A DNA stretch of 24,020 nt from a virus, in the IMG/VR virus record IMGVR_UViG_3300032323_000425, positions 1-24,020 of that record; one strand, written 5' to 3'. Positions 3,460 through 9,779 of this stretch are shown piece after piece. Position numbers and translations under genes: made by a program. Every line of letters begins with the position of its first letter. The stretch's first letter is position 1. The notes under the pieces were generated by a model. That model made no database searches and had not been told where the DNA came from. It saw only the letters and a program-made list of their open reading frames with translations.

Positions 3460-3882
3460 TTATTTTTCGTCTATCTCTTTTAACTTATTAATTGCGTACT
3501 CAATACCACTCGTTCCGCCCCACGCATCCCAGGCAATACCGCCACAACCTTCGCTATATGGTACGTCTTTATGCTGCTGATGTCTTTTGAATGAAGCCAT
3601 ACGAGCAATAGTATCTCTGCTTATTGGCTCTCTGTTAGCTAACTGCCTTGCCCTTGCTTTGCCGGTTGCTTCAAGACAAGAACCCCATCCATTTTTCTCA
3701 GCCCATTCTATTGCCCTCTTTGCGTTGTTACTAGCTGATTCTGGGTAGTCGGTATAGCTATCAGCGAACTTGCCACCTGCTAGGATAGCCTTCCAAACCT
3801 GCATAGCTTTTTCTTCTGTATCGTACACGCATCCGCCTTGTCCGATTTTCCATTTTCCTGAACTGCATCTTCTTACTGGCAT
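3460..3882 (-). CDS. Standalone domain of the kind linked to XkdF-like head maturation proteins
   Basis: This is a 140-residue protein. The N-terminus MPVRRCSSGKWKIGQGGCVY, followed by DTEEKA, resembles the short opening module found ahead of XkdF-type prohead proteases. The second part contains YPESASNNAKRAIEWAEKNG (46-65), then ARARQLANREPISRDTIARM, and GIAWDAWGG at 115-123. This matches, by memory, a helical domain often fused to phage serine proteases and portal proteins. Here it stands alone with no protease domain, and its catalytic role, if any, is unknown. It overlaps the glycosyltransferase upstream by 10 bases. The GGTSG near the end and several cysteines (6, 18, 69, 113) are visible. 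Confidence 0.6.
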   Translation of the reverse strand: MPVRRCSSGKWKIGQGGCVYDTEEKAMQVWKAILAGGKFADSYTDYPESASNNAKRAIEWAEKNGWGSCLEATGKARARQLANREPISRDTIARMASFKRHQQHKDVPYSEGCGGIAWDAWGGTSGIEYAINKLKEIDEK

Positions 3883-4868
3883 AGTTTACTATAAATATAC
3901 TTTCTGTCTAAATTTATCTCCCCAAAGTTATAGTTCTTTTTGCAGAACTCAAATAGTTTATTTCCGCTTTCCTTTCGCATCTGCTCATCATTAACTAAAT
4001 CTTTGATATGCTTATACCAATCCTTCTGGCTTTTAACGTAATGCACCGGCATATCTAAGTAAGGATTGATGTGGCTAACAACGGCAGGGTTCTTTTTAGC
4101 AGCCGTTTCTAATACTTTAAGATTTGACTTCATAGCGTTAAACTTGTTATCTACCAAAGGTATGATTGAAATGTCGCTATCTGTGTAAGCTCCCATATAT
4201 TCTGTAACCTTTGCATAGTTGTAAATAGTAGGGTTAAGTTTTAGTCCGCAAGTAAACGCATCAATCATTTTATCCCATACCGGCTTTTCGCCATCGTTGT
4301 ACCCGGCTATCACAGTTCTTATATTCATACCTTGCAACCTTTTAAAAGGGTGTCTAATTAAATCAAGGTCTCGTTCGTGTGTTCCGCTGCCGGACCAGAA
4401 TAGTCTAACCTTGTCGCTTTGTAGTTTCTCATCTCTAAATTGCTCGTCTCCATAAGGTAAAGCGTTCGGTAATATGTGAACGTTTTTACTGTATGTGCTT
4501 ATCTCTGCTGCTAATCTTTCGTGGGTGCAGGTGCAAAGGTCTGCAACTTCTAAATAGTCAGTAATAAGTTTAGGTATGTTATTGAGCTTGTATCTTGAAT
4601 ACAACAAATGGCTTTCGCTAAGTTCCCAGTAATCGTCGTTATCTACTACTAATTTAAAGCCGTACTTAGTCCGCCAAGTATCCATTTGCTTTGCATCTAT
4701 CTCGTTAAGCATTCTATTCATTAGCACAATATCCCACCCCTGCTCTAATAACTCATCATTAAGTACGTCTGTGATAAGCGCGTACTCTTTTTCCATATGT
4801 ACTATTGGCATCATTATTCTGTGGAAGCCTACACCTGAGTTAGCACTAGTTATACAAAGTATTCGCAT
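3873..4868 (-). CDS. GT-B fold glycosyltransferase (GT4-like)
   Basis: This 331-residue protein reads like a two-Rossmann glycosyltransferase. It opens with MRILCITSANSGVGFHRIMM, the N-terminal acceptor-domain strand and Gly-rich loop. ILPNALP (132-138) marks the linker, and VRLFWSGSGTHERDLDLI (154-171) starts the donor-binding domain. SDISIIPLVDNKFNAMKSNL with KVLETAA (231-257) is the donor-site segment; the usual EX7E pair appears reduced to one clear Glu (E254). It should transfer a sugar from an activated donor to an unknown acceptor. It forms a three-gene sugar-modification set with the next two genes upstream (GT-A enzyme and LpxA-like acyltransferase), overlapping the former by 19 bases. 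Confidence 0.85.
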   Translation of the reverse strand: MRILCITSANSGVGFHRIMMPIVHMEKEYALITDVLNDELLEQGWDIVLMNRMLNEIDAKQMDTWRTKYGFKLVVDNDDYWELSESHLLYSRYKLNNIPKLITDYLEVADLCTCTHERLAAEISTYSKNVHILPNALPYGDEQFRDEKLQSDKVRLFWSGSGTHERDLDLIRHPFKRLQGMNIRTVIAGYNDGEKPVWDKMIDAFTCGLKLNPTIYNYAKVTEYMGAYTDSDISIIPLVDNKFNAMKSNLKVLETAAKKNPAVVSHINPYLDMPVHYVKSQKDWYKHIKDLVNDEQMRKESGNKLFEFCKKNYNFGEINLDRKYIYSKLCQ

Positions 4869-5533
4869 CTTATATTCTTTTGGTTGTGATAGATGTCCTG
4901 GTATTTATCCCATACGCTTTGCGCCCTTGCCAAGCTCTCGTCTTTCATTCGTCTGTAATCTGTTCCGTTGCCTACATCGTGTCCTATATGTTCTGACCTA
5001 ATATCCGGCAGGTAGTAATTTGTAAACCCTGTAATAGTTGCTCGTTCTCCATAATCTCTATCCTGCATTCCGTAAGGGTCGTACTCTTCGTTGTAACCCC
5101 CAACCGCGTCTATAAGTTCACGAGTGATAAAGTTATCTCCAAAAGGTGTATGCGTTTTATGAACTCCGTCTACTATTGGTGGCAGTTCCTCTACACAATG
5201 TATTCCAATAATGCCAGTTTTTGACACACGTTGAGAAAACATAACCCATTTTGACAACCAATTCTCAGGTAATAAAATGTCATTGGCTAATAAACAAACC
5301 GCATCATAGTTTTGAGTTATCCTAAGACCTGCATTTACTCCGGCTGCTATGCCTCGCTTTTCTTTTGATAAGTCATACCCGGCAAACGGGTAATTAAAGT
5401 TCTCGTGCGTATCGCTGCCGTTATCTATTAGGAAACAATCTGCATTGTAACCTGAGTTGTAAAAGTTCTGGTTAATTACACGCTGCGTTAAATCGTGCCT
5501 GTTTTGTGTAAGTAGTAAAATAGCGACTTTCAT
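4850..5533 (-). CDS. GT-A fold glycosyltransferase (GT2 family)
   Basis: This is a 227-residue enzyme. VAILLLTQNRHDLTQRVI (3-20) and FLIDNGSDT (34-42) form the nucleotide-sugar binding start typical of GT2. KRGIAAGVNAGLRIT (59-73) is the characteristic helix. LLANDILLP (81-89) sits where the metal-binding DxD usually stands, with a single Asp, D85. GMQDRDYGERA (155-165) corresponds to the catalytic-base ED-type motif. No membrane segments are seen, so it is cytosolic. It overlaps its neighbours by one base upstream and 19 downstream. The acceptor could be host surface glycan, a virion protein or modified DNA; nothing in the sequence decides between them. Confidence 0.87.
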   Translation of the reverse strand: MKVAILLLTQNRHDLTQRVINQNFYNSGYNADCFLIDNGSDTHENFNYPFAGYDLSKEKRGIAAGVNAGLRITQNYDAVCLLANDILLPENWLSKWVMFSQRVSKTGIIGIHCVEELPPIVDGVHKTHTPFGDNFITRELIDAVGGYNEEYDPYGMQDRDYGERATITGFTNYYLPDIRSEHIGHDVGNGTDYRRMKDESLARAQSVWDKYQDIYHNQKNIRCEYFV

Positions 5534-6012
5534 TATCTTATATTTGAGCCGATTTCCCTTGCCGGAACTCCTGCATATTTAGTATTTGCTTTTGCTTCTC
5601 CTTTTAAGAAGGCACTTGCTCCTATCATACAATTTGCGCCAACGTGTGCAAACTGATGTAGAACTGCGTTAAGTCCTATATTGCTTCCTTCTTCAATTAT
5701 AGAATGTCCACCTATTTTTGCTCCGCAGCTTATTGTTACATTGTCTAAAATATTACAATCGTGTCCGATGTGTGCGTGTTTCATTATAAAACAATTATTG
5801 CCAATAAAGGTGTCTATCTCCGTTCCTGCATCTATTGTTACAAGTCCTGTAATAACATTGTTATCGCCAATGTAAACTTTGCCTTTTTCTTTTTGCCAGA
5901 ACTTCTTATGCTCTGCTTTGTCTCCAATAATACAATAAGGACCGATGTAGTTGCCATCTCCGATAATTACGTTATCGCCAATGATAGCGGTAGGGTGGAT
6001 AAAATTAGCCAT
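5533..6012 (-). CDS. LpxA-like left-handed beta-helix acyltransferase
   Basis: This 159-residue protein consists mostly of hexapeptide repeats, for example HPTAIIGDNVIIGDGNYIG at 6-24. The central part follows UDP-GlcNAc O-acyltransferase LpxA closely. KHAHIGHDC (78-86) aligns with the LpxA catalytic segment AHIAHDC, placing the catalytic His at H84. LNAVLHQFAHVGANCMIG (114-131) aligns with the LpxA HQF segment. LpxA is about 260 residues with a C-terminal helical domain; here the protein ends with YAGVPAREIG, as in short sugar O- or N-acyltransferases. It is therefore probably a sugar acyltransferase using acyl-CoA or acyl-ACP. It is followed directly by two glycosyltransferases, pointing to a glycan-modifying pathway. 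Confidence 0.85.
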   Translation of the reverse strand: MANFIHPTAIIGDNVIIGDGNYIGPYCIIGDKAEHKKFWQKEKGKVYIGDNNVITGLVTIDAGTEIDTFIGNNCFIMKHAHIGHDCNILDNVTISCGAKIGGHSIIEEGSNIGLNAVLHQFAHVGANCMIGASAFLKGEAKANTKYAGVPAREIGSNIR

Positions 6013-6473: not shown

Positions 6474-7127
6474 TTAAAATAGTTTTATTTGTTGAATGTG
6501 ATTGTTATATCTTTTTAATGCTGCTTCATAATATTCAGTATCTAACTCACAGGCAGTTAAATCAAAGCCATAATCGTGACAAGCTATTGCAATACTTCCA
6601 GAGCCTAAATGTGTATCAAGTATTTTATCTCCTTTTTTTGCATATTTGTTTAGTAACCATTTATATAAAGAAACAGGCTTTTGTGTAGGATGTATGCAAT
6701 CTTTACCACCGCGAGTTCCTTCAAATTTATGTATTGTGTATTTTCTTACAGTAGTTTTCATATTAGACCAAGCAAGTTCACAATCTGCAAAATCTGTTCC
6801 TTCATTTTTTTTATCCCAAACAATCCAACAAGATGAATTTTGATTTGGTATGTTTTCAATAAAATGATTTGCTCCCCATATTATTACGTTTTTTGAAACT
6901 CTTAATAATTCAATAAAATAGCTTTTATTAGGAGCAGAATTATCCCAATTTTTTGTAGTATATTTTGGCTTTCTTTTATAGCTATTAGGTCTACTTGGGC
7001 TTGTTCTAATACCTTTTCTTCCATCTTCTCCAATACCATATGGTGGGTCTACAATAGCTAAATCGAAATATTTATCAGCATAACGAGACATTAACTCCAT
7101 ATTATCTTCATTGGTTAATGTTACCAT
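6474..7127 (-). CDS. DNA N6/N4 amino-methyltransferase, stand-alone
   Basis: This is a 217-residue N6_N4_Mtase. Catalytic DPPYGIGE is at 27-34, VIIWGANHF at 81-89, HPTQKP at 146-151 and the SAM-binding motif DTHLGSGSIA at 171-180 (beta-class order). The short insert (about 35-140) would hold target recognition. It is similar in layout to the methyltransferase half of the ParB fusion at 1707-2822 (shared WGxNxF, IVWDK/LIWDK, HPTQKP and LGSGS/T), so the two may be distant paralogues. No endonuclease partner is adjacent. The gene looks more AT-rich than its neighbours, with long runs of A/T-ending codons, which suggests separate acquisition. Confidence 0.88.
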   Translation of the reverse strand: MVTLTNEDNMELMSRYADKYFDLAIVDPPYGIGEDGRKGIRTSPSRPNSYKRKPKYTTKNWDNSAPNKSYFIELLRVSKNVIIWGANHFIENIPNQNSSCWIVWDKKNEGTDFADCELAWSNMKTTVRKYTIHKFEGTRGGKDCIHPTQKPVSLYKWLLNKYAKKGDKILDTHLGSGSIAIACHDYGFDLTACELDTEYYEAALKRYNNHIQQIKLF

Positions 7128-7906: not shown

Positions 7907-8560
7907 CTAAGAAAATGAAACTTTGCCTAATTTTATTTGCTCCTCAAAAAATAAAGATACCGCTACGGCTCTGGCTTGGTTCTTTAACCATTGTTCAGTC
8001 CATTCATCTCTGTACTGCTTTGCGCTGATTATATCCATTTTATTAGCCTTGTATGTAATGATTTCCATTAGTTTCTTTTTAGCAACTGCCCCGTCTTCTT
8101 TTGACCAAGTCTTAATGCCAGAATTATGCAGCTTTGTAAATACAGATAAAGGGTTAAACAATCTGTCAAAAGTTCTATTTTCTAGAACCTTATACTCCTG
8201 ATAACTGTAATCAATTATCTCTAAATCAGTTAAATGTGGTATTGCTTGTTCTCGTTCCTGTGGTATCATTTTGCGTACTATGTTTGCTTTTTTCTTGTAT
8301 CTATCCATAACCTGACTAAAATAAGCCGGGCTAAAATTTTGGTAATGGTCTATGAAGTCATTAGCTACCATTTGCTTAAACGCTACTTTAACCTCGTTTA
8401 TTGTAAAGCCACCGTATTCAGTCCTTATCCAATCCTCTAAAATTGCTAACTTAACTTCGCCAGGATTGTTAATGCCAACAAGCTGCATTAAATAAATAAG
8501 GTTTTGGTTAAATATGATAGAGTTTAGATTCCGGACTCTCTCCCCCGAAAATGCGGTCAT
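7907..8560 (-). CDS. Probable replication-associated protein; start uncertain
   Basis: The frame is open to an ATG at 8665 (252 residues), but that start would overlap the upstream gene by 158 bases. The ATG at 8560 overlaps only 53 and has AGGAG a few bases before it, so 217 residues is preferred here. Visible features are a helical start ERVRNLNSIIFNQNLIYLMQ and the segment EYGGFTINEVKVAFKQMVAN. A further segment is FSPAYFSQVMDRYKKKA, before a long charged helical C-terminus. The pattern resembles the helper or helicase-loader-type proteins that follow replisome organisers in Bacteroidota phages. No ATP-binding Walker motif is visible, so a DnaC-type ATPase is ruled out. Function is inferred mainly from position. 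Confidence 0.65.
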   Translation of the reverse strand: MTAFSGERVRNLNSIIFNQNLIYLMQLVGINNPGEVKLAILEDWIRTEYGGFTINEVKVAFKQMVANDFIDHYQNFSPAYFSQVMDRYKKKANIVRKMIPQEREQAIPHLTDLEIIDYSYQEYKVLENRTFDRLFNPLSVFTKLHNSGIKTWSKEDGAVAKKKLMEIITYKANKMDIISAKQYRDEWTEQWLKNQARAVAVSLFFEEQIKLGKVSFS

Positions 8561-9233
8561 AATCTCCTGCTCCGTAGGAAGTAGAGTAGATAAAGTTGTA
8601 GTTTTTAAGGTTTTCGAGTTCGTGCTTATCAAGTTTTCGTTGATTATTTGTAGTTCCTTTTGCATATTGTTTAGCGTTTGTTATCCAATTATTTACTGCG
8701 TGTGTCCAACTTTTCATAGGGTTCTTACCTACTCTCCACCCGTTGCTCGTGTAGTAATTTACAAATTTTTCGGCTTCTACCTTTGCCTGTTCTGTTCCTA
8801 TCCGGATTGCCATATATTCGTAAACTTCTTCAAAACTACACTTACTTTTATTAATATTTACATCTTCATTTTCATTTTCATTTTCATCTTCCATAAGGTT
8901 ATGTTTAGCTAAACCTAGTGGTTTTGTATTATTTTTAGGTCTACCACCCTTAGAGCCATTGTTTCTGCGGCTTTCAGTAAATTGAATGCGTTTTTCAATC
9001 TCTTCATTTAGACGTTCATTAAAATAATTTCCTTGTTTGTCTTTTGTAAACTTGCTCAAAACATCAACCGAAACCGAACCTAAACATAACCTAATGGTTT
9101 TGTCTGTAAGTGTTCCTTTTTGGTGTTGTAAACATAAGAGGGTAATAAATTGTCCTCTCTCTTCCATTGTTAAATCAGCTACTCCATTTAGGAAGTCGCT
9201 ACTGTAAAATAGGAATGCAGGGTCTTTTGCCAT
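8508..9233 (-). CDS. Phage replisome organiser-like protein (DUF1376/DnaD-type)
   Basis: This is a 241-residue protein. The N-terminal module (residues 4-40), DPAFLFYSSDFLNGV then EERGQFITLLCLQHQKG, is typical of DUF1376/YdaU-like winged-helix replication proteins. The middle carries SRRNNGSKGGRPK (88-100) and an acidic Asn/Glu linker (115-124) encoded by a CATTTT tandem repeat. The C-terminal part has FVNYYTSNGWRVGKNPMKSW and NNWITNA, the ending of DnaD-type primosome proteins. The likely role is to bind the phage origin and recruit the host helicase. The start codon follows immediately after the U-tract of a hairpin terminator (9241-9277), leaving no room for a normal Shine-Dalgarno site. 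Confidence 0.8.
   Translation of the reverse strand: MAKDPAFLFYSSDFLNGVADLTMEERGQFITLLCLQHQKGTLTDKTIRLCLGSVSVDVLSKFTKDKQGNYFNERLNEEIEKRIQFTESRRNNGSKGGRPKNNTKPLGLAKHNLMEDENENENEDVNINKSKCSFEEVYEYMAIRIGTEQAKVEAEKFVNYYTSNGWRVGKNPMKSWTHAVNNWITNAKQYAKGTTNNQRKLDKHELENLKNYNFIYSTSYGAGDYDRIFGGESPESKLYHI
8867..8887. repeat. Short tandem repeat of CATTTT
   Basis: Three full copies of CATTTT plus a partial fourth (CAT) occur in-frame within the replisome-organiser gene. They encode the Asn-Glu alternation of its acidic linker. Slippage here would change linker length by two residues per unit without a frameshift. Confidence 0.85.
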
Positions 9234-9240
9234 AATAAAA

Positions 9241-9277
9241 TAAAAAAGCCCCCAATAGAGTCCAGCTATCAGGGGCT
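9241..9277 (-). terminator. Hairpin terminator abutting the replisome-organiser start codon
   Basis: On the minus strand AGCCCCTGATAG pairs with CTATTGGGGGCT, giving 12 continuous pairs including two G-U wobbles. The 7-base loop is CTGGACT, and the stem is followed by TTTTTATTTT. Stem arms are 9277-9266 and 9258-9247. This is a textbook intrinsic terminator in structure, located after the DnaA-like gene (stop at 9351). The next start codon (9233) begins 7 bases after the end of the U-tract region. Its loop is fully complementary to the loop of the hairpin at 9294-9325. Confidence 0.8.
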
Positions 9278-9325
9278 ATTATTTAACCACTAAACACATT
9301 ATCGGCTGGACTTTCGCTAATGTGT
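9247..9325 (-). ncRNA. Candidate structured RNA: two hairpins with complementary loops
   Basis: The upstream hairpin on the minus strand pairs ACACATTA (9325-9318) with TAATGTGT (9301-9294). Two further C-G pairs follow a G-A mismatch, leaving a 10-base loop AAAGTCCAGC. The downstream hairpin is the terminator at 9247-9277 with loop CTGGACT. AGTCCAG of the first loop and CTGGACT of the second are exact 7-base complements (8 if the closing G is included). This would permit a kissing-loop contact across a 16-base linker. Such an RNA could act as an attenuator for the downstream replication genes, a processed 3' end, or part of a replication origin. The pairing is seen directly; function is inference. 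Confidence 0.55.
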
Positions 9326-9350
9326 CTTTTATTTATGCTGCGAATATACA

Positions 9351-9779
9351 CTAAATTTCTTTAAGTTCTAATTTTAAGCAAAGTTTTTTTAGCTTTGTTT
9401 TAAACCAATCCTCAGTTTCAATTAGGTTATTCGCTTGTTTTATGTTATGGATAGCAGTCGTGTGGTCGCTTGTTCCTGTGTACTGGCTTATCTCTTTAAG
9501 GCTCAACTTAGTGTACCTTCTAAGTAAATAAGCAGCAGCCTTGCGACCGAACGTTGTTTTTAAGCTTCTATCCTTAATTAATACATCGCACTCAAATTCT
9601 TCGTCTACCAATTTGACAATAGTTCTTGCACCAATGTCTAAACCCAAAGGCTCGTTATCTTCTATGCCTAACAACCCAAGCTGCTGCATCATTTCATGAA
9701 GCTGCAAGTGTGTGTTGCGTTGCGCATAATAAAGCTCCTTTAACTGTCTTATTGATATATCTCTTTTTCTAGTTAGCAT
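9351..9779 (-). CDS. DnaA domain IV-like DNA-binding protein
   Basis: This is a 142-residue protein. The C-terminal 80 residues match the DnaA DNA-binding domain: GRKAAAYLLRRYTKLSLKEI (78-97), followed by the signature TGTSDHTTAIHNIKQANNLI (101-120) with D105-H-T-T. There is no AAA+ ATPase domain; residues 1-50 are a separate helical region (LKELYYAQRNTHLQLHEMMQ at 13-32). It could bind DnaA-box-like sites at a phage origin, compete with host DnaA, or act as a regulator. It lies in the early operon between an SSB-tailed protein and the two-hairpin RNA element. Confidence 0.85.
   Translation of the reverse strand: MLTRKRDISIRQLKELYYAQRNTHLQLHEMMQQLGLLGIEDNEPLGLDIGARTIVKLVDEEFECDVLIKDRSLKTTFGRKAAAYLLRRYTKLSLKEISQYTGTSDHTTAIHNIKQANNLIETEDWFKTKLKKLCLKLELKEI

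Follow-up and report, generated by a model that had tools for sequence, protein, structure and literature searches.

In the contact between RNAI and RNAII of ColE1, seven-nucleotide loops are fully paired, and RNAI, which is antisense to RNAII, acts in trans. The CI RNA of phage P4 and the C4 RNA of phage P1 belong to leaders with internal complementarity and termination control before the replication genes; the processed RNA acts in trans and serves prophage immunity. In type III toxin-antitoxin systems, the ToxI RNA gene is followed by a terminator and then by the protein gene. Cobalamin riboswitches carry an L5-L13 kissing loop, in which a leader loop contacts a loop of the expression platform on the same transcript (PMC9600662), and in attenuators of the pT181 type, a terminator stands in the leader of a replication gene and kissing hairpins take part in the control (PMC4878617).

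Here, we analyzed an element in a viral stretch of 24,020 nucleotides (positions 1 to 24,020 of IMGVR_UViG_3300032323_000425; hereafter, the window), in which two hairpins on one strand carry complementary loops ahead of a replication gene. Its nearest known mechanism is, by analogy, that of the cobalamin riboswitches (RF00174) with their L5-L13 kissing loop; in both, a leader loop kisses the loop of a regulatory hairpin in cis, which in our case is inferred from loop-loop covariation. Unlike the riboswitch, the element has no aptamer core and only a minimal 5' hairpin, and the partner is the terminator loop itself. RF00174 gave no gathering-score match in the window or in loci L151, L159, L445, L447, and L449, and it was absent from the relaxed list for positions 9200-9400. 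As in pT181, a leader terminator stands before a replication gene together with kissing hairpins. However, pT181 uses a trans-acting antisense RNA and an antiterminator that excludes the terminator, whereas the contact here lies in cis and leaves the stem intact, and no upstream partner for AGCCCC that could form a pT181-style antiterminator was found in the fold or in relatives. An earlier interpretation of the window made without database searches (the sequence-only reading) had drawn a parallel with ColE1. The parallel stands with respect to contact size, in that the contact spans the full 7-nt terminator loop, but it fails with respect to arrangement, since both loops belong to hairpins of one strand and one predicted transcript and no antisense gene was found; nor did the Rfam RNAI model match the element. 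Like the P4 CI and P1 C4 RNAs, the element would be a phage leader RNA with internal complementarity before replication genes, but it has no Rfam match to C4 (RF01695), and its relatives lack an integrase (14 contigs). With ToxI it shares the order of RNA, terminator, and protein gene; in contrast, it has no tandem repeats, and the genes downstream are replication or homing-endonuclease genes. No Rfam family matched the element at gathering or relaxed thresholds, and none of the papers searched describes such an element, the subscription literature lying outside the scope of this search.

Anatomy and genomic setting of the element

All parts of the element lie on the minus strand. Hairpin 1 (HP1; 9294..9325) has an 8-bp outer stem (ACACATTA at 9325-9318 and TAATGTGT at 9301-9294), a 1x1 mismatch, and 2 more pairs (CG/CG) closing a 10-nt loop, within which lies the kissing 7-mer AGTCCAG (9306..9312). 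A linker of 16 nt (9278..9293), mostly unpaired, leads to hairpin 2 (HP2; 9247..9277), an intrinsic terminator with a 12-bp stem (AGCCCCTGATAG at 9277-9266 and CTATTGGGGGCT at 9258-9247) followed by a tract of six T residues (9242..9247). The entire 7-nt loop of this terminator, CTGGACT (9259..9265), is exactly complementary to the 7-mer in loop 1. The extent of the element (9241-9325), the 16-nt gap, the 12-bp terminator, and the 7-base complement had all been reported from the letters alone and proved correct on rereading. HP2 is the best terminator within the 20 kb scanned and meets the criteria of a GC-rich hairpin and U-tract, although termination itself is predicted. The minimum free energy of the element is -32 kcal/mol (z = -2.8 versus dinucleotide shuffles; 1/200 shuffles was equally low), and by our own arithmetic, the chance of an exact 7-mer match to the terminator loop inside a 10-nt loop is about 4/4^7, or 2e-4, for a single sequence.

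Downstream, 8 nt separate the T-tract from the ATG (9233-9231) of a DUF1376-like gene for a replisome organizer or primosomal protein (8508..9233, minus strand; PHROG primosomal families, E=3e-10 and 1e-8); the start codon is at most about 36 nt from loop 2. The DUF1376 match itself (E=3e-4) remains under the curated cut-off. In this gene (window 8508-9233; also L008, L011, and L018), the C-terminal part is common, while the N-terminal domain is swapped among at least four kinds; these are DUF1376-like, Lin1244_N, or unnamed, and the DnaA-like proteins of the same phages are nearly identical. Free-standing homing-endonuclease-like genes sit exactly between the T-tract and the replication gene in some relatives (HNH in L003 and L032, GIY-YIG in L004). 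The element stays in place while the downstream N-terminal domains are exchanged or an HNH, GIY-YIG, or small ORF is inserted, and in the loci read, no further promoter or terminator was noticed on the way to the replication gene.

Upstream lies a gene for a 142-aa protein with a DnaA domain IV helix-turn-helix (Bac_DnaA_C; 9351..9779, minus strand; Pfam PF08299, E=3e-11), 95-99% identical among close relatives and missing from the L151, L152, and L159 lineages, whose upstream regions were read by eye. Two bases past its stop is a putative -7 promoter box, TATATTCG (9341..9348, minus strand), which follows the Bacteroidota consensus TTTG/TAnnTTTG (PMC6847099). It takes the form TATATT[TC]G in 90/90 aligned relatives, partly by construction, because the extraction was anchored on the box; it is also present in the DnaA-anchored set, and a TAnnTT[TCA]G box accompanies all but three tabulated copies (of the three, one is a wrong-strand match and one is cut by a contig end; the row for L166, which matched the wrong strand, was disregarded). 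A possible -33 element, TTA (9369..9371, minus strand), lies 20 nt before the -7 box and is weak in the window. At this position, 30/90 relatives have TTG at 19 nt and 56/90 have TTA, but in AT-rich DNA a TT[AG] will often turn up by chance within a 6-position range, and promoter activity is inferred only. Taking the start as 5 nt past the G of the -7 box and the end as the T-tract, we predict a leader RNA of about 96 nt (9241..9336, minus strand); this placement rests on the Flavobacterium johnsoniae promoter map (PMC6847099) and on the terminator, with no transcript data. The promoter boxes suggest that the hosts are probably Bacteroidota. Because the genes around the element are co-oriented, transcripts from upstream would also cross it. 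Elsewhere in the window are glycosyltransferase-like genes with a hexapeptide-repeat transferase (3873-6012) and, by eye only, two DNA methyltransferase-like genes with DPPYG motifs (1707-2822 and 6474-7127), the first with a ParB-like N-terminal part.

Conservation among close relatives

Two scans anchored on neighboring proteins yielded 160 loci of uncultured phages, to which a linker scan added more. The element is kept in 299/299 loci that have enough sequence after the DnaA-like gene; many of these loci overlap, and they comprise 118 distinct gene-loop combinations. In an alignment of 90 distinct sequences (A3), the 7 loop-loop pairs are Watson-Crick in 629/630 cells, with no wobble among them, and 5/7 show compensatory two-sided change. 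Six loop pairs occur in the close family: AGTCCAG/CTGGACT, AGTCGAG/CTCGACT, GTACGAA/TTCGTAC, CTGCGAA/TTCGCAG, CTACGAA/TTCGTAG, and GAGCGAA/TTCGCTC. The stems behave likewise. HP1 is paired in 99.5% of cells and has three pairs with compensatory changes (TTA/TAA to TAG/CTA, and CG to GG/CC), and the terminator stem, which also has compensatory changes, is paired in 97% of cells. Sliding the 3' partners by 1 to 3 columns lowered whole-structure pairing from 98.8% to 35-42%. A possible eighth loop pair (C/G) is broken in 10/90 relatives; it is thus not maintained, so that the contact corresponds exactly to the 7-nt terminator loop. The sole broken loop pair in the family, with one A-C mismatch (CTACGAA versus TTCGCAG), is found in IMGVR_UViG_3300042881_000703 (L213, 576-684, minus strand), which looks like a recombinant or an intermediate of two loop types.

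Aligned cells are not independent events, because the sequences of one family share kinship, a weakness from which the test across other lineages (see below) is free. Parsimony on the DnaA-like tree gave 62 loop-type changes over 118 tips, but mutation and whole-element recombination are mixed in this figure, so it cannot be read as a count of events. We regard the structure, i.e., two hairpins and a 7-nt loop-loop contact, as near certain. The sequence-only reading had argued that the loop match was unlikely to arise by chance, which the pairing across 90 distinct homologues bears out, and had described a kissing-loop-like RNA, of no named family that it knew of, between two replication genes, one of them DnaA-like, a description that the homologues and the Rfam result uphold. 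It had also set refuting conditions, one of them homologous loci that keep both stems but lose loop complementarity; the relatives gave no such case, with the element kept in every usable locus and a single mismatch in one contig.

Recurrence with unrelated sequence

Further relatives of the DUF1376-like gene supplied 173 distinct upstream regions, which fell into 45 clusters. A terminator lies beside the start codon in 20/45 clusters, and 24/45 have none (one more automatic call was spurious), so the element is dispensable in the latter lineages. In all 20 terminator clusters, a loop of the terminator, either terminal or internal, is matched by a complementary segment close to where the transcript is predicted to begin. 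These segments are 6 to 10 nt long, mostly 7, with only 6-nt matches in two clusters (L675 and L677). The 20 clusters have no detectable sequence kinship; what they have in common is the order of TAnnTTTG box, 5' partner, complementary terminator loop, and start codon. Examples of the kissing pairs are GTACGAG/CTCGTAC (L151), CCACCAC/GTGGTGG (L159), GTGGTAG/CTACCAC (L585), GTATCCG/CGGATAC (L588), GTCGGAT/ATCCGAC (L632), GTGCGAG/CTCGCAC (L578), and AGAACGAC/GTCGTTCT (L672). Pairs are also replaced within clusters: GTCTCAG/CTGAGAC, GTCGCAC/GTGCGAC, and CTACCAG/CTGGTAG in L559/L561/L640, GTCGCAG/CTGCGAC and GTACAAG/CTTGTAC in L641/L671, and TGCAACC/GGTTGCA and TGGAACC/GGTTCCA in L537/L535, with compensatory swaps inside L660/L686 and L599/L601/L676/L680 as well.

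The distance from loop to loop is 36-47 nt except in two lineages, where it is about 80 nt (the L535-L542 kind) or 55-57 nt (the L599 kind). The L535-L542 elements are a larger, GC-rich version (ca. 145 nt); their terminator hairpin is long, and an internal loop within it is the partner of the 5' hairpin loop. L599, L601, L676, and L680 have no 5' hairpin; instead, the terminator loop forms a pseudoknot with the first 9 to 10 nt of the predicted RNA, in four different compensated sequences.

As a control, we took the 47 other distinct terminators in these loci, two of which had a loop complement. Both turned out to be the element itself, displaced upstream by one gene, a small ORF that separates it from the DUF1376-like gene (L596, 1140-1500; L689, about 1100-1300). 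Hence, 0/45 terminators elsewhere in these phages have a partner, versus 69/71 at the site. The pair in L689 is GTGGAAG/CTTCCAC, and that locus is similar to L675 except that the loop pair has been exchanged. Only two genes, both from one neighborhood, served as anchors for sampling, and the figure of 0/45 covers only the loci fetched.

Outside these uncultured phages, a nucleotide search of named phages returned only chance matches. In protein searches, the DnaA-like protein was found in no named phage and the replication gene had only remote relatives, one of which, from human feces, lacks the element. A covariance model run on five Bacteroidota genomes recovered ordinary terminators only, without loop partners, and the element was absent from the upstream regions read for DUF1376-like genes of Flavobacteriaceae genomes (L691-L693 and L695). 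No cellular copy was thus found in these genomes and upstream regions or among the matches listed in the linker scan. In IMGVR_UViG_3300008259_000430 (L133 and L149), one part of the primosomal gene apparently lies at each end of the 33.5-kb contig; this points to a near-complete genome of ca. 33 to 35 kb that is circularly permuted.

A cis-acting leader and the alternatives

We propose that the element is a cis-acting leader, or kissing terminator, of the phage replication module; its regulatory role is inferred, and we hold this proposal to be evenly poised between right and wrong. Transcription would start just past the DnaA-like gene, promoter use being inferred, and the 5' hairpin would fold first. 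As the terminator emerges, its 7-nt loop would pair with the waiting loop of the 5' hairpin to form a compact, docked RNA with an intact terminator stem. Docking may then set the strength or stability of the terminator, the direction of this effect again being inferred, and the docked structure, lying near the start codon, may also affect translation of the replication genes; in Flavobacterium, structure near the start codon reduces translation (PMC6847099). Read-through, or undocking by an unidentified factor, would release the replication genes and raise their expression, the trigger likewise being an inference. Such a role is possible and agrees with the arrangement of an upstream promoter box and a terminator abutting the start codon, but there are no functional data.

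Conservation covers the terminator stem and the loop-loop helix alike, and the contact stops where the stem begins, which indicates that they are parts of one structure and not alternatives. This coexistence argues against a classical antiterminator and makes it more likely that docking stabilizes or sets the terminated state than that it opens an antiterminator. Against the leader model stand the lack of RNA data, the transcripts from upstream that also cross the element, the 24/45 clusters that do without a terminator, and the fact that no antiterminator or ligand pocket is visible. The constant loop spacing points to docking in cis. By our own estimate, the two stems and the 7-bp helix are about 30 bp long, a length that a linker of 15 to 18 nt just spans.

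The main rival to this leader model is a free small RNA acting elsewhere: a stable, end-protected phage RNA of about 96 nt that has host or phage targets or binds protein, with the replication gene a mere neighbor. We think this unlikely, albeit well worth keeping in view. An RNA of this kind would account for a promoter box and terminator of its own and for a downstream gene that can be exchanged. It would also suit the linker, TTTAGTGGTTAAATAA(T), which is mostly unpaired and nearly invariant in 299/299 DnaA-anchored loci with enough downstream sequence, while the surrounding stems and loops change; as TTTAGTGGTTAAAT it is identical across these 299 loci, and variation is limited to TAA/TGA near the 3' end. 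The leader model leaves this near-invariance unexplained, and it could mean a protein-binding RNA with some other role. However, the linker sequence is not common to other lineages. Searched for in about 85,000 genomes of bacteria and archaea, the 16-mer gave 101 stretches, which is close to chance expectation, and among the matches listed there was no element and no conserved complement that stood out. It is also difficult to reconcile a mere neighbor with the finding that in 20 unrelated clusters the element lies directly before the replication gene, or one gene before it (L596, L689, and the HNH/GIY-YIG cases), and that none of the 45 other terminators carries this layout.

Control in trans between transcripts, in the style of ColE1, pT181, or the P4 CI RNA, would provide dose-dependent replication control or type-specific phage exclusion. 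The six orthogonal loop pairs of the close relatives would then be specificity groups, the target would lie before a replication gene, and kissing attenuators are indeed known in plasmids (PMC4878617). Nevertheless, we consider it improbable. Both partners lie in one molecule, at a spacing (36-47 nt) that fits docking in cis and would hide the loops from partners in trans; each RNA would thus mask its own loops. Furthermore, no antisense gene was found. Lysogenic immunity is unlikely because no tyrosine integrase or serine resolvase was found in 14 contigs of 32 to 35 kb; for the same reason, the phage group seems to be virulent, although other routes to lysogeny are not excluded.

That the element works as DNA, whether as an origin, as a recombination boundary, or as a protein-bound inverted repeat, is very improbable, even though it adjoins the DnaA-like gene and marks a boundary where downstream domains exchange. 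The stems hold 228 G-U cells on the minus strand, where the opposite strand would have A-C mismatches, so the structure belongs to the minus-strand RNA and not to double-stranded DNA or to an RNA of the other strand. Moreover, the contact matches loops and not arms, and lineages without the DnaA-like gene also carry the element. The suggestion of an origin element next to that gene in the sequence-only reading therefore finds no support, there being no skew minimum at the site and the wobble pairs placing the structure on the minus-strand RNA. Attenuation by a leader peptide is hardly credible: the linker mini-ORF (ATG TGT TTA GTG GTT AAA TAA/TGA, MCLVVK) is present in nearly all family members, with its start inside the HP1 3' arm, but it shows no synonymous change in any member while the adjacent gene does vary at its third codon positions (mean diversity, 0.25), its stop is lost in 5/90 aligned sequences, and it is missing from other lineages.

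Returning to the cis-acting leader, we suggest tentatively, and with real doubt, that it represents a class of phage regulatory RNA, so far undescribed, whose architecture is inherited and not its sequence: the loop of a 5' element pairs with that of the terminator ahead of the replication-initiation gene, a layout that has evolved or diversified into at least 20 sequence-unrelated forms, and the loop pairs may serve as orthogonal locks. If the latter is true, the loop pairs would govern at what time, or together with which phage, replication begins. As a resource, the natural orthogonal loop pairs at constant spacing offer a ready-made set on which loop-loop control of termination could be assayed in a reporter. 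If confirmed, the class would be one that sequence homology searches cannot detect, because nothing but a rule of pairing and a genomic place is common to its unrelated sequences, and it would mean that an intrinsic terminator can be controlled via its loop and not by unfolding of its stem. It would also be the first regulatory RNA for replication in this group of aquatic phages, which is uncultured and abundant and probably infects Bacteroidota.
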